Source: Acidobacteriota bacterium (GTDB lineage: Bacteria; Acidobacteriota; Thermoanaerobaculia; Multivoradales; J023). Taken from it: a DNA stretch of 32,781 bases. Shown piece after piece: positions 3,448 through 32,313 of the stretch; the first letter of the stretch is position 1; each line of letters opens with the position of its first letter. The translations under genes and the position numbers were made by a program. The notes under the pieces are model-generated. The model searched no databases and was not told the origin of the DNA. It was given only the letters and a program-made list of their open reading frames with translations. Location: contig RFGL01000187.1 of NCBI GenBank assembly GCA_003697015.1, positions 1-32,781 of the forward strand, read 5' to 3'.

Positions 3448-3473
3448 CGCTCAACCTGCGCCGCGGCGCGGCG

Positions 3474-3815
3474 TCAGGCGACGGCGATCGCCGGGGCGAC
3501 GGATTCGAGCTTGTCGCGCAGCACGCGGGCCGGCGGCGCCCCGACCTGGACGTCGACCACCTGACCGCGGCGGAAGAGGATCAGGGTCGGGATGCTGCGG
3601 GTATCGTACTCCCGGGCGAGCTCGGGCGAGTCGTCGACGTTGACCTTGACGATCTTCACCCGGCCTTCGTATTCCGCCGCCAGGCGCTCGAGGGTGGGCG
3701 CCAGGGCGCGGCACGGCGGGCACCAGTCGGCGTAGAAATCGACCAACACCGGCTGCTCGGCGCGCAGGACCTCCTGCGGGAACTGCTCGGTGCGAATTGT
3801 CGTGACGTTTTTCAT
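3474..3815 (-). CDS. Thioredoxin with WCPPC active site
   Basis: This 113-residue protein has the length and full pattern of a single-domain thioredoxin: VLVDFYADWCPPC (active-site cysteines 32 and 35), the buried Asp of VDFYA, and the cis-proline region SIPTL followed by LFRRGQVV. It would reduce protein disulfides in the cytoplasm. The dipeptide between the cysteines is Pro-Pro rather than the usual Gly-Pro, which may alter redox potential and partner choice. There is no signal peptide. The ATG at 3815 is preceded by GGAGG at good spacing; an upstream in-frame ATG at 3842 would run through a hairpin and lacks a ribosome site. A 9-bp hairpin sits 17 nt upstream of the start. I give no trxA symbol because the active site is atypical and other thioredoxins probably exist in the genome. 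Confidence 0.9.
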   Translation of the reverse strand: MKNVTTIRTEQFPQEVLRAEQPVLVDFYADWCPPCRALAPTLERLAAEYEGRVKIVKVNVDDSPELAREYDTRSIPTLILFRRGQVVDVQVGAPPARVLRDKLESVAPAIAVA

Positions 3816-27980: not shown

Positions 27981-28001
27981 AGGGTGAGCTATCCTCACCC
28001 T
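27981..28001. promoter_or_regulatory. Perfect inverted repeat upstream of the HTH-TPR regulator
   Basis: AGGGTGAG (27981-27988) and CTCACCCT (27994-28001) are perfect 8-bp inverted arms around CTATC. The site lies 50 nt before the GTG at 28052 and is followed by AT-rich sequence (28004-28031), the probable promoter. It has the form of an operator for a dimeric HTH protein. Autoregulation by the downstream regulator is inference. Confidence 0.5.
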
Positions 28002-28051
28002 GCTGTTGAGCTAAGAAAAACTCTGATACCGTAGCCAGGGGATCGTGGATC

Positions 28052-29347
28052 GTGGATACCGCGGATTTCATCGACCGTATCGCGTCGGCGCTGCGTTCGT
28101 TCCTCAAGCTCGAGGGGCGGGGAGCGGTATCGGCCACCGCCGATCGGATCGGGGTTCACCCCTCCTACTTCCGCGTCATGCTGCCCACCGGTCTGCCGAC
28201 GCGCAAGCTCGGCGCCACCCTCGCCGCCCTCGACCTCGAGCCGGCGATCTTCTTCGCCCGCGCCTTCGGCACCGTCGATCCGGTCGACCACTTCCGCTCC
28301 GACGCGCGGCGCCTGCGGCGGCGGGAAGCCGAGCACCCTCTTCTCGCCGGCCTGCGCACCCGGCTGCGCGGCGGCGAGCTGGCGCCCGAGCCCGAGGCCG
28401 ACGACGCCCGCTCAGACGAGCTCGAGGTCATCGACGATCTGCGTTACGAGAACCTCGGCCAGGCCACCACCCGCGCCGCCAGTGCCGTCCGCCGGGCCGC
28501 CGATCGCCTCACCGCCGCCCGCGCGCTCGGCATCTGGGCCTCGTGCATGCGGCTCCACCGCCAGCTCGACGACGCCACCCTCGCTCTCGATCTCGCCTTC
28601 GAGCTCGCCGGCACCGCCCGCCCGCTCGCCGGCGAGCTCGCCCAACGGGCGGCCTTCGTCCTCCACGAGCGCGGCGAATACCTGCGCGGCCTGGCGCTGG
28701 TCGAGCAGGCCTTGATCGCCTACGTCGAGGCCAACGATCCCGATCGCATCGGCCGGACCCTGGTCGACCGCGGCGTCCTGCTGTACCAGCTGGGCGAGCC
28801 CGCCGCCGCCCTGCTGTCCTACAAGAGCAGCCTGCGCTACCTGGCGGCATCGTCGCAGCGGAATCGCGGTGCTGCGATGCAAGGGCTCGGCCGCATCTAC
28901 TACGAGATGGGAAACCTCGATCAGGCGGCCGAGGTCACCCGCGAGGCAGCGCGGGTGCTGCCTTCCTCCGGCACCCTGGCCGGGCATCTCGCCTGGCTGC
29001 GGGCTGCCATCGCCTCCGATCTCGGCAACCACCGGCAGGCGGAGGCGCAGTATCGGCGCGCCCTCGTTCTCTTCGCCGAGGTGCCGGACGATGCGCTGTT
29101 GGTGGCAGCCCAGTTGGTGCGGCTCCTGTGCCGGCAGGGACGCACCGACGAGGGCTGCGACCTCACCCGCTCCTTGCTCTGGCTGGTCGAGCCGCTGGAG
29201 GGCGATCGGGTGCTTCAGGCCTGCCTCGCCGATCTGATCCGCGCCGGCATGGAAGGGAGCCGGGCTCTCACCCTGGAGTTGGTCGAAGCCACCATCCGCA
29301 CCATCGAGCGCGAGCGATCCCGGAGGATCGCCCGCGCTCAGCGATGA
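28052..29347 (+). CDS. HTH-TPR transcriptional regulator (RRNPP-like architecture)
   Basis: A 431-residue cytoplasmic protein. Residues about 20-62 fit a helix-turn-helix (VSATADRIGVHPSYFRVMLP), and residues about 130-420 are repeated helical pairs of TPR type, clearest in RTLVDRGVLLYQLGEPAAAL and GLGRIYYEMGNLDQAAEV. An HTH followed by a TPR superhelix is the architecture of RRNPP regulators such as PlcR and Rgg, in which the TPR binds a short imported peptide. That family is known mainly from Firmicutes; here similarity is of architecture only. The GTG at 28052 has CCAGGGGA about 10 nt upstream; a GTG at 28045 is in another frame. The gene converges, with one base between stop codons, on a gene for a small secreted repeat protein. 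The operator-like dyad is upstream. Confidence 0.72.
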   Translation: MDTADFIDRIASALRSFLKLEGRGAVSATADRIGVHPSYFRVMLPTGLPTRKLGATLAALDLEPAIFFARAFGTVDPVDHFRSDARRLRRREAEHPLLAGLRTRLRGGELAPEPEADDARSDELEVIDDLRYENLGQATTRAASAVRRAADRLTAARALGIWASCMRLHRQLDDATLALDLAFELAGTARPLAGELAQRAAFVLHERGEYLRGLALVEQALIAYVEANDPDRIGRTLVDRGVLLYQLGEPAAALLSYKSSLRYLAASSQRNRGAAMQGLGRIYYEMGNLDQAAEVTREAARVLPSSGTLAGHLAWLRAAIASDLGNHRQAEAQYRRALVLFAEVPDDALLVAAQLVRLLCRQGRTDEGCDLTRSLLWLVEPLEGDRVLQACLADLIRAGMEGSRALTLELVEATIRTIERERSRRIARAQR

Positions 29348-29348
29348 C

Positions 29349-29681
29349 CTAACTCAGCCTCACGCGCTGCGGCGATAGAGCACCGGCGAGCTGCTGGCCG
29401 TTCGGAATGATCACCGCCGACGCCGCAAACTGCTGGCCGCTCGGAATGATCACCGCCGACGCCGCAAACTGCTGGCCGTTCGGAATGATCACCGCCGACG
29501 CCGCAAGCTGCTGGCCGTTCGGAATGATCACCGCCGACGCCGCAAACTGCTGGCCGTTCGGCTCGATCAGGTTCCCGGCCGCAAGCTGCTGGCCGCTCGT
29601 GGCGGCGGCGATGGAGATGCCGCTCACCGCCGCCACCAGGACGGCTGCGAGCACCAAGACGGGGAGAACGTTGCGAGTCAT
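29349..29681 (-). CDS. Small secreted protein of 13-residue tandem repeats
   Basis: A 110-residue protein. Residues 1-27 are a clear Sec signal peptide (MTRN, then VLPVLVLAAVLVAAVSG, ending IAAA). The rest is almost entirely repeat: GQQ motifs in SGQQLAAGN, EPNGQQFAASAV, then IIP(N/S)GQQ(F/L)AASAV repeated, ending NGQQLAGALSPQRVRLS. The unit is 13 residues and there are six GQQ motifs. There is no cysteine and no recognised domain. The ATG at 29681 has AAGGGGG upstream. Possible roles: a precursor of repeated signalling peptides read by the adjacent HTH-TPR protein; an amyloid- or solenoid-forming surface protein, as the Gln/Asn-Gly and beta-branched pattern might stack; or an unmodified structural peptide. 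The convergent neighbour makes the first testable but unproven. Confidence 0.7.
   Translation of the reverse strand: MTRNVLPVLVLAAVLVAAVSGISIAAATSGQQLAAGNLIEPNGQQFAASAVIIPNGQQLAASAVIIPNGQQFAASAVIIPSGQQFAASAVIIPNGQQLAGALSPQRVRLS
29391..29600. repeat. Tandem 39-bp repeats
   Basis: Five full 39-bp units start at 29391, 29430, 29469, 29508 and 29547, each beginning CTGCTGGCCG; a partial sixth follows at 29586-29600. The first four differ from one another by only one or two bases, while the fifth has diverged. The unit length is a multiple of three, so each encodes one 13-residue block of the minus-strand protein. Near-identity at the DNA level points to recent expansion or homogenisation, and copy number may vary among strains. 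Confidence 0.95.
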
Positions 29682-29862: not shown

Positions 29863-32313
29863 TCAGCGGCGCTGGGCGAAGAGCGGCAGCTGGGCGGCCT
29901 CCCCGGCCTCGCGCTGGTGCTGGGCGGCGGCGCCGAGCAGGCGGCCGGCGAGGGCGGTACCGCTCAGGAAGGCCGCCTCCAGGCGCGCACCCAGACACCA
30001 GTCGCCGCAGACTCCGGCGCCGCGGGCGGCGTCGAAGAGGCAGTCTTCGCCCAAGGGCGTCAGCGTCCGGGCGTAGCGCCAGCGATGGAGGGCGAGATGC
30101 CTGCGGCGCGGCAGCGAGCCGCCGACGAGGCCCGCGAAGGCCGCCAGCAGGGCGTCGACCACCGCTTCGCGAGGCGCTTCGAGGTGGGTCGTGCTCCACG
30201 CCGCCGTCGCATGCAGCACCCAGATCTCGGCCGCCGGGTCGCGCTCCGGCTTGCCGCCGTCCCGCGCCACCCAGGCGAATGGGGTGCCCTCCAGGTCGCC
30301 CGGCTCCAGATCGGCGATCAACGGCTCGTCGAAGGCGACGATCAGGGCCAGGCACGGGGCCATCGCCACCGTCGCAAGCCGTTCCTGGAGCTCGGGGATC
30401 GGCGCCAGCAGCGGCCGCGCCCGCGGCGCCGGCATCGCCAGGGCGACGGCGTCGAAAGCCTCCGCCACCTCGCCCGACGCCAGACGCAGGGACCAGCGGC
30501 GGGCCTTCCGCTCGAGGGCCACCACCGCGTCGCCGGCGACGAGGGTCAGATCGGCCGCCAGATGCCGCGCCAGCCGGTCCATGGAGGGCACGCCGACGTA
30601 GCGCTCGACGGCGCCGTCGTCGCGGCCGAGAGAGGAGGCGTCGCGCGGCCAGGGGGCGATCAGCCGGTCGTGCAGCCAGGAGCGGACGAAGGGGGCGAAG
30701 CGCGGATCGCGCTGGGTGAAGTACTGGGCGCCGAGATCGCAGGCCAGATCGCCGGCACGGTAGGTCGCCAGCCGGCCGCCGGGAAAGCGGCCGCGGTCGA
30801 ATGCCGTCACCTCCAGGCCGTGGTCGACCAGCACCCGGGCGCAGGTCAATCCGGCCATTCCGGCGCCGACCACCGCCACCCGCGGCGGCTGCTTGAGGGA
30901 CGGCCGGGCGGCCCGGGCGGCGAAACGCGGCAGGTCGAGGCGCCGGGCGTGCTCGGTGGTCGGCCGCGCCGGCACCGTGCCGTAGATCGGCCGCGGCGGC
31001 TCGCACGGCTGCTCGTCGAGCCCCAGGCATCCGAGAGCGCCGCCGTAGGACGCGGGGCCGCGGCCGTCGAGGGCGAACCGGTCGTTGAGATCGAGGAGCA
31101 GGGCGAGGGCGCTCTCGGGGTCGGCGGTCCAGGCGAGGAGCGCCTTGCCCCAGGTTCGCCGCAGGTCGTGATGCAGCTCACCGTGGATGCGGAGGCAGTT
31201 CTGGGCCGCGTCCCATAACGGGTCGCCGCTGCGGCTGCGGGCCAGGGTCTCCCACGACGGCAGAGCCGGCCGCGGATCCTCCCGGTGCTCGGACAGGGTG
31301 GCCAGGGCCCACGCCGGCAGGGCGCCGGCGGTGGCGTGACGGGGCTCGTAGAAGCACAGGTTGTACGCCAGCTCGCGCCGGATCACCAGCTGATCGAGAA
31401 AGCGGTGGGCGCCGTCGCTGCCCTCCTCCGCCGCCTCCCGCGCCAGGCGCAGGGGCGACACCATGCCGTAGCGCAGGTAGGCCGACATGCGGCTGGTGCC
31501 CTCCGCCAGGGGATCGTCGCGCGCCCGCTCGTAGGCCGCCAGCTTGCCGTCACGAAAGGCCCGCCAGCGGGCGTAGCCCGCCCGGCTGCCGCCGCGGGCG
31601 TGGGCCACCGGGGCCACCCCGTGGTCGATCTCGCAGCGCGCCACCAGAGCGGCCAGGTCGGCGGACTCCAGATCGATCGGAGCGAAGGGCAGATCCGGCG
31701 GGCGGTACGGAGGCTGGCGCGGCACGACGTCGTGCCAGGGCCGGCGCAGTCGGGCCTGGCGCAGGCTGGTGGTGGCGCGGCGAAAAGCGACGGCGCGGGA
31801 AAATCGCCGGCCGACGAGGCGCATCGGCACCACGCAGGCGGCGTCGACGGCCACCAGCGGTACCGTCACCCGCCGCGCCAGGACCGCGGTCCACGCGGCC
31901 AGCGGCATGACCGGCATGTCCTCGGTCACCACCACCGCCGCCCGCCGGGCGAGGCTCTCGAGATGGCGCCCGCGGTGACCCGGGCGGCTGAGGTGGAAGG
32001 CGTAGCCGACGCCGCGCCGGGCCAGCGCCGCCGCCAGGTCGCGGGCGCCTTCGAGGACGAAGACGTGGTGGCGGTCCGAGGCGTGGGGATAGCGCTCCGA
32101 CAGGGCCTGGTAGACGAAGGCCGGCAGGCCGAGGGCGTGGGCCAGGGCCAGGGCGGCGTCGAGGGCCGGATTCTCGCTCCCGCGCATCGCCGTACGCAGC
32201 CAGTAGAGGACGTAGCGCCCCGCCGCCGGCGGCCCGCCGCGCACCACCCGCACCCGTTCCGCCACCGCCGGCGGCAGCCGGGCGAGCCAGGTCGCGATGT
32301 CCTCGCCGGCCAC
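29863..32313 (-). CDS. Class II-like DNA photolyase fused to renalase-like FAD oxidoreductase
   Basis: An 816-residue two-enzyme fusion. Residues 1 to about 455 resemble class II CPD photolyases: YVLYWLRTAMRGSENPAL at the start, EGTSRMSAYLRYGMVSPL (FAD pocket), ELAYNLCFYEP, then WDAAQNCLRIHGELHHDLRR and LNDRFALDGRGPASYGG. From about 478 a second Rossmann FAD domain begins (VAVVGAGMAGL, GxGxxG at 483-488), with FPGGRLAT and DLGAQYFTQRDPRF, continuing to GVCGDWCLGARLEAAFLSG (FAD contact near the end). This half fits the renalase-like amine oxidase group. The first half would repair UV pyrimidine dimers with light; the second might oxidise NAD(P)H or an amine, or keep flavin reduced. The linkage is inference. 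The start is GTG 32313 with GAGGTG upstream; it is divergent from the DUF427 gene at 32382. Confidence 0.87.
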   Translation of the reverse strand: MAGEDIATWLARLPPAVAERVRVVRGGPPAAGRYVLYWLRTAMRGSENPALDAALALAHALGLPAFVYQALSERYPHASDRHHVFVLEGARDLAAALARRGVGYAFHLSRPGHRGRHLESLARRAAVVVTEDMPVMPLAAWTAVLARRVTVPLVAVDAACVVPMRLVGRRFSRAVAFRRATTSLRQARLRRPWHDVVPRQPPYRPPDLPFAPIDLESADLAALVARCEIDHGVAPVAHARGGSRAGYARWRAFRDGKLAAYERARDDPLAEGTSRMSAYLRYGMVSPLRLAREAAEEGSDGAHRFLDQLVIRRELAYNLCFYEPRHATAGALPAWALATLSEHREDPRPALPSWETLARSRSGDPLWDAAQNCLRIHGELHHDLRRTWGKALLAWTADPESALALLLDLNDRFALDGRGPASYGGALGCLGLDEQPCEPPRPIYGTVPARPTTEHARRLDLPRFAARAARPSLKQPPRVAVVGAGMAGLTCARVLVDHGLEVTAFDRGRFPGGRLATYRAGDLACDLGAQYFTQRDPRFAPFVRSWLHDRLIAPWPRDASSLGRDDGAVERYVGVPSMDRLARHLAADLTLVAGDAVVALERKARRWSLRLASGEVAEAFDAVALAMPAPRARPLLAPIPELQERLATVAMAPCLALIVAFDEPLIADLEPGDLEGTPFAWVARDGGKPERDPAAEIWVLHATAAWSTTHLEAPREAVVDALLAAFAGLVGGSLPRRRHLALHRWRYARTLTPLGEDCLFDAARGAGVCGDWCLGARLEAAFLSGTALAGRLLGAAAQHQREAGEAAQLPLFAQRR

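Follow-up and report, generated by a model that had tools for sequence, protein, structure and literature searches.

A conserved pairing of TPR regulators with small motif-bearing genes in Acidobacteriota suggests an RRNPP-like peptide-receptor module

The genes of the RRNPPA family have been reported from several Firmicutes genera, all but one of them within the Bacilli, and the receptors of RRNPP systems carry either an HTH or a three-helix bundle at the N-terminus (PMC9765709). RRNPP is presented as a Gram-positive system in a 2026 review (PMC13220807), and the examples given for RRNPP_detector come from Firmicutes and viruses (PMC10075063). The Phr propeptides contain 1-4 pheromone copies, and a route of duplication and divergence has been discussed for them (PMC11343458). 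Our literature search found no paper joining RRNPP and Acidobacteri-, although papers beyond the searched set could exist.

We analysed a stretch of 32,781 nucleotides (the window), which is contig C342 of a 5.34-Mb Acidobacteriota genome in 500 contigs. The original prediction had described an HTH-TPR protein lying one base from the convergent gene for a 110-residue exported repeat protein, and the coordinates, the strands and the spacing between the two gene ends were all correct. The features of the locus are the following:

27981-28001, no strand: perfect 8-bp dyad that precedes the receptor start by 50 bp, a candidate operator at most (sequence)
28052-29347, plus strand: receptor gene, GTG start, 431 aa (ORF list; 76 non-redundant homologous ORFs in relatives)
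28052-28276, plus strand: N-terminal domain of the receptor, residues 1-75, Cro/C1-type helix-turn-helix (AF2 helices, Pfam matches of relatives, alignment to PlcR-DNA)
28397-29341, plus strand: TPR superhelix of the receptor, residues 116-430, the presumed peptide-binding part (Pfam, AF2, fold matches, groove residues)
29349-29681, minus strand: gene of the 110-aa peptide precursor, convergent to that of the receptor (ORF and Shine-Dalgarno AAGGGGG; counterparts beside most receptors)
29604-29681, minus strand: Sec-like signal peptide, about residues 1-26 (hydropathy rule score 3.2)
29553-29570, minus strand: family-like peptide core LIEPNG, residues 38-43 (fits the consensus core of relatives)
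29385-29540, minus strand: 13-residue units, four of them and nearly identical, in which the core has diverged to IIP[N/S]G (39-bp array from TRF, unit comparison)

The dyad (AGGGTGAG-CTATC-CTCACCCT) exists as predicted, and no other exact or one-mismatch copy was found in the genome. It is weak evidence, since 8-bp dyads are frequent in the window (2.1 per kb); 3% of the composition-matched resamples of the upstream region contained one. The sole two-mismatch site elsewhere in the genome is G-rich and probably due to chance, and was rejected as a sign of a shared operator. A search for sigma-70 promoters and terminators at the locus, which is not informative for this phylum, found none. Beyond the precursor gene lies an 816-aa ORF (29863-32313, minus strand) in which, by eye, one half looks like a photolyase/cryptochrome and the other like an FAD-dependent amine oxidase.

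The AlphaFold model of the receptor (mean pLDDT 93.1, and >90 in the TPR superhelix) has a helical HTH at about residues 1-75, followed by the TPR superhelix at about residues 116-430. The window receptor matched Pfam TPR_12 (E 1.4e-13), and members of the aligned receptor family matched HTH_3/HTH_26 (best E 3.7e-7). With the fold matches, these results indicate that the combination of a TPR superhelix and an N-terminal HTH, a trait of the transcriptional members of RRNPP(A), is present. The top PDB folds for the model were LGN (Z 23.1), Rap with CSF (22.4) and phi3T Rap (21.9), followed by RapF with its inhibitory peptide (21.8) and NprR (20.6). PlcR-PapR-DNA was also among the matches and aligned from the HTH (residue 7), with a high rmsd. 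TPR folds are common, and the structure search did not single out RRNPP, as the eukaryotic LGN was tied with Rap.

When we compared the window receptor with RRNPP-specific sequence models, no match was found; Pfam gave generic TPR only, and NCBIfam gave a sub-threshold NsdA match. The latter, NF053720 (NsdA-family), resembled the TPR part through weak local matches of 24 and 43 bits, far under its cut-off of 75 bits, and the description of this model names no peptide partner. The known range of RRNPP(A) is Bacillota and their mobile elements, while the pairs described here occur in Acidobacteriota. Because neither the RRNPP-specific models nor this taxonomic range covers it, we keep the system apart from RRNPP membership.

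Among 55 receptors, the polar and aromatic residues of the TPR part are most strongly conserved on the A-helices at groove-facing positions (S/N164, R167, Y202, D206, K/R312, W315 and D/E354), the facing being derived from canonical TPR numbering and not from coordinates. As the original prediction required, the TPR domain has conserved residues at the canonical groove positions. The window receptor deviates at three of them (F202, H312 and Q354).

A first contig search with a single receptor as query found no relative. The receptor homologues used here (n = 76) were gathered without reference to the peptide, and are plentiful in two families of the order, that of the window and f5. A receptor was scored as paired when a neighbouring small ORF ended in [ILV..][DE]P[NSDHG]G. 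We observed such an ORF beside 39 of the 76 homologues, whereas five scrambled motifs gave 0, 1, 3, 0 and 0 beside the same receptors. Other genes of the same regions had a motif ORF in 6 of 197 cases (Fisher p=7e-20 versus the receptors), and four of these six adjoin apparent orphan precursors (the neighbours being pentapeptide-repeat, KAP-NTPase and unknown proteins). The window was left out of the 39 because its own motif has diverged and is not terminal. In another genus (G003:C279), a receptor homologue has a convergent, almost touching match to the repeat protein, which is one of the two best matches of this protein outside its own genome. As the original prediction required, a precursor adjoins close homologues of the regulator, although its copy number and flanking residues are usually different.

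The original prediction had allowed that the two genes might be paired by chance. A generic TPR regulator would then happen to adjoin an unrelated repeat ORF grown by replication slippage, which is extremely improbable. The four window copies are indeed recent 39-bp duplications and the window motif departs from the consensus, but the pairing is kept across genera and families with the controls at background, which contradicts chance for the family, and the first motif copy of the window, LIEPNG, is the family core. We conclude that the pairing is conserved and is not a matter of chance.

We also scanned for the motif itself. The pattern I[DE]PxG-stop occurred 36 times in 36 relatives, versus 2 times for a reversed control, and about half of the matches adjoin a receptor, including receptors that had previously been missed. 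Within the phylum but outside the order, the motif was at background level, and a receptor was found at none of the approximately 25 motif loci there. The stricter GPxI[DE]PNG-stop gave a single match in a genome collection of 85k species, beside a receptor in the Acidobacteriota MAG OFTM223, and the peptide-pattern scan of viral contigs found nothing. The diversity of A1 was too high for a scan with a degenerate pattern.

The resulting catalogue, from which two doubtful automatic pairs (L056 and L074) were removed, holds 53 pairs from 16 genomes (G000-G006, G010-G013, G018, G021, G025, G027 and G031) in families f1, f5, f6, f7 and f8 of one Acidobacteriota order. A small propeptide gene next to the receptor, another trait of RRNPP(A), is therefore present. 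The two genes are convergent in 39 pairs, and in the other 14 the precursor lies upstream and co-directional. The peptides follow the consensus G-P-x-I-[DE]-P-[NHSD]-G, and 38 of the 53 precursors end exactly with the motif. G (42/50) and P (31/50) prevail at the first two positions, which lay upstream of, and outside, the core motif used in the search. The ORFs at the receptor flanks end in GPLVEPNG (five times), GPTLEPDG (five, with variants), GPLIEPNG (five, with variants), GPSLEPHG, GPMLEPSG, GLIDPNG and the like, and stop just past the receptor stop. In its length, the conserved C-terminal core would fit the mature peptides of RRNPP(A), which are released by proteolysis and have about 5-10 residues. 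Strict motif copies range from 1 to 5, with two or more in 17 of the 53 precursors, an automatic count that is too liberal for one or two of them.

The precursors of the relatives behave as real genes and are under purifying selection. Three paralogous precursors of G025 gave pS of about 0.09 and pN of 0.015-0.023, and two precursor genes of 19 codons differ mainly at silent sites.

Several arrangements were seen in the catalogue and around it. One receptor (L122, G018:C266) has two tandem precursors upstream, both ending in SPHIDPDG, and on a 4.9-kb contig (L037/L012, G025:C348) three receptor-precursor pairs follow one another in tandem, head to tail. In many precursors a Trp-rich stretch, resembling an amphipathic helix, separates signal peptide and motif (e.g. 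WVSELGEVVLGFVKGWF; found in L016, L018, L045, L047, L065, L089, L097 and L108); it is absent from the window precursor. In the window's own genome, a precursor-like ORF ending in KARAELDPNG precedes a receptor by about 660 nt (L171, G000:C125), and an orphan precursor-like ORF of 14 aa, MAEMKHHLTIEPGG, occurs at L176 (G000:C127). Leaderless precursors (ending in SSDPDGGPFLTATGFDPNGGPLCAGSAMDPNG) at 3473-3577 and 8907-9050 of L177 (G010:C52) stand beside pentapeptide-repeat proteins, not a TPR receptor. Exported precursors ending in SIDPNG and VDIEPNG (L180, G018:C36, and L181, G004:C142) have no recognisable receptor; their neighbours are a KAP-family NTPase and an unknown protein.

We further compared the distances among receptors with those among peptides. 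The two were correlated (Mantel r=0.45, p<=0.0005), and this held as well for the convergent pairs whose receptors are <50% identical, so that the co-occurrence and co-variation looked for in related genomes were both observed. The correlation is one of co-inheritance, which alone can give such a signal, and is no proof of binding.

These data bear on the suggestion of a secreted effector, structural or antimicrobial product, whose gene the TPR regulator would control in response to something else and without binding the product. That a small repeat protein with an export signal adjoins a regulator would agree with this. However, the precursors have a single short C-terminal motif in common while the remainder differs, some of them (14-20 aa) are little but the motif, peptide and receptor diverge together, and no recurring modification or transport gene was seen beside the 13 pairs examined. 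We regard a secreted product of this kind as quite improbable.

The precursor of the window has a hydrophobic N-terminus with a strong Sec-like signal, and its ATG is preceded by a good Shine-Dalgarno. TRF reported an array of 4.4 copies of a 39-bp unit, with 96% matches and a score of 328. The prediction of six GQQ repeats holds in so far as six GQQ sites occur at an exact spacing of 13 residues; the element conserved across relatives is IxPNG and not GQQ, and the diagnostic feature is the C-terminal consensus given above. The units are ISIAAATSGQQLA, AGNLIEPNGQQFA and four of the form ASAVIIP[N/S]GQQ[L/F]A; a core is missing from the first (ISIAAATSGQQ), and it reads LIEPNG in the second and II-P-N/S-G in the last four. 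The window thus has one strict motif copy and four diverged copies. Its peptide lacks the conserved G-P, and about 15 residues follow the last copy. Candidate peptides of the window may include NLIEPNG, NLIEPNGQQFA, AVIIPNG and IIPNGQQFAASAV.

A multicopy design had been considered untypical of RRNPP pairs, but the duplicated Rap-Phr pheromones (phi3T and phi105; PMC11343458) already come as 1-4 identical or slightly different copies in one propeptide. The Acidobacteriota system is one that works like RRNPP, and multicopy precursors as such are already known. The Rap-Phr case is also similar in having one family-like copy beside diverged copies, and by analogy the one family-like and four changed copies of the window fit the duplication-and-divergence route of Phr. 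The two cases differ in that the window receptor is an HTH regulator and not a Rap, and in that the peptide is another one, with up to five copies and a putative cleavage.

By a simple hydropathy rule, a Sec-like signal is present in 30 of the 53 precursors, including that of the window. Export, which runs through Sec or PptAB for RRNPP(A) propeptides, would therefore not be universal, the other 23 (about 40%) being without a signal by this rule. The latter make it a live rival explanation that the small proteins act inside the cell, with the C-terminal [DE]PNG tail docking in the TPR groove and no export; the tail would then be a co-regulator or anti-repressor, and the versions with a signal peptide a side branch or a coupling of receptor to secretion. 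The leaderless precursors of genus g3, of only 14-20 residues (e.g. MRVATLIRAGVGPLADPNG, 19 residues), are in line with this, an exactly C-terminal motif would let the TPR read the free carboxylate without processing, and convergent genes permit tight co-regulation. On the other hand, more than half of the precursors carry the signal, and multicopy precursors make most sense if they are cut apart. We consider action inside the cell unlikely, and retain the exported precursor as our reading of the window.

When we examined the receptors with an upstream, co-directional precursor, those that could be aligned had no HTH. These HTH-less receptors (including L029, L081, L083, L089-L092, L097, L113 and L114) belong to sister families. 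Their N-terminus has an invariant H5, H31, C36 and C39 in the context HLxxxCPxCR, and seems to resemble the zinc-binding anti-sigma/zf-HC2 motif. As Pfam support for zf-HC2 is weak (E 0.019 at best, in 1 of 12 of these receptors), the zinc-finger-like reading rests on the four invariant residues. The model of an HTH-less receptor had a pLDDT of 84 overall and was low in the first 60 residues. The TPR domains of the two types are homologous (hhalign 99.9%, E 2.2e-36, 326 columns), and W322 and R170 are retained in the HTH-less receptors. With homologous TPR domains and different N-termini, one sensor seems to drive two outputs, much like the RRNPP receptors with their HTH or three-helix bundle. 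In two loci from both species of the window's genus (L094, G000:C263, and L096, G001:C99), HTH and TPR are on separate ORFs that adjoin an HHLTIEPGG precursor, possibly forming a two-gene receptor.

Compared with the RRNPP(A) systems (Rap, Rgg, NprR, PlcR, PrgX and AimR), the Acidobacteriota pairs are similar in the fold match to Rap, NprR and PlcR (LGN being equally close), in a cytoplasmic TPR receptor with a variable N-terminal output domain and strong paralogous expansion, and in an adjacent small propeptide gene with a short C-terminal peptide and multicopy variants. They differ in the host, which is an acidobacterium with a diderm envelope here and Bacillota there, in escaping the RRNPP-specific models (as seen with the window receptor), in sharing the peptide signature, and in the arrangement, convergent in two Acidobacteriota families and with a zinc-finger-like output domain in the others.

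The reading of the window pair as an HTH-TPR regulator and an exported multicopy precursor is strongly supported by the conservation of the pair, the co-divergence and the fold. Taking these computed results with the shared motif and the selection on the relatives' precursors, we find it fairly probable that the pairs are an RRNPP-like peptide-receptor module in a diderm phylum, of which the window is a multicopy, divergent member. What we infer are the later steps, from cleavage and the crossing of two membranes, past the periplasm, to import, binding and the control of transcription at target genes. The small gene would give a precursor, Sec-exported in the case of the window, which would be cut to a short peptide with the core I-x-P-N-G. 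Sec export in a diderm reaches the periplasm and no further. The peptide would re-enter the cytoplasm, probably via an oligopeptide permease; SBP_bac_5 oligopeptide-binding proteins are present in the genome, which is permissive for re-import and no more. It would then bind the concave groove of the TPR receptor and alter the activity of the N-terminal HTH, and hence transcription; the conserved groove residues and the co-divergence bear on this step indirectly. The neighbours in common near the 13 pairs were generic kinase-like genes and recent duplicates, and no target gene was shared. In the window, the one family-like copy (LIEPNG) and the four recent, diverged copies (IIPNG) may provide more dose or reflect a drift in specificity.

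It is almost as likely as not that the system is an independent or very anciently diverged form of peptide quorum sensing in a diderm phylum, with one TPR sensor family, two interchangeable outputs (HTH or zinc-finger, anti-sigma-like), an expanded set of cognate GPxI[DE]PNG peptides, and about ten receptors per genome at most. If the conserved pairs are receptors with their peptides, peptide communication would extend to an abundant and poorly cultured diderm phylum, which would raise the testable question of the route by which peptides leave and re-enter a diderm cell. Dozens of natural receptor-peptide pairs would become available for studies of specificity, and tiny genes that annotation usually overlooks would gain a likely function.
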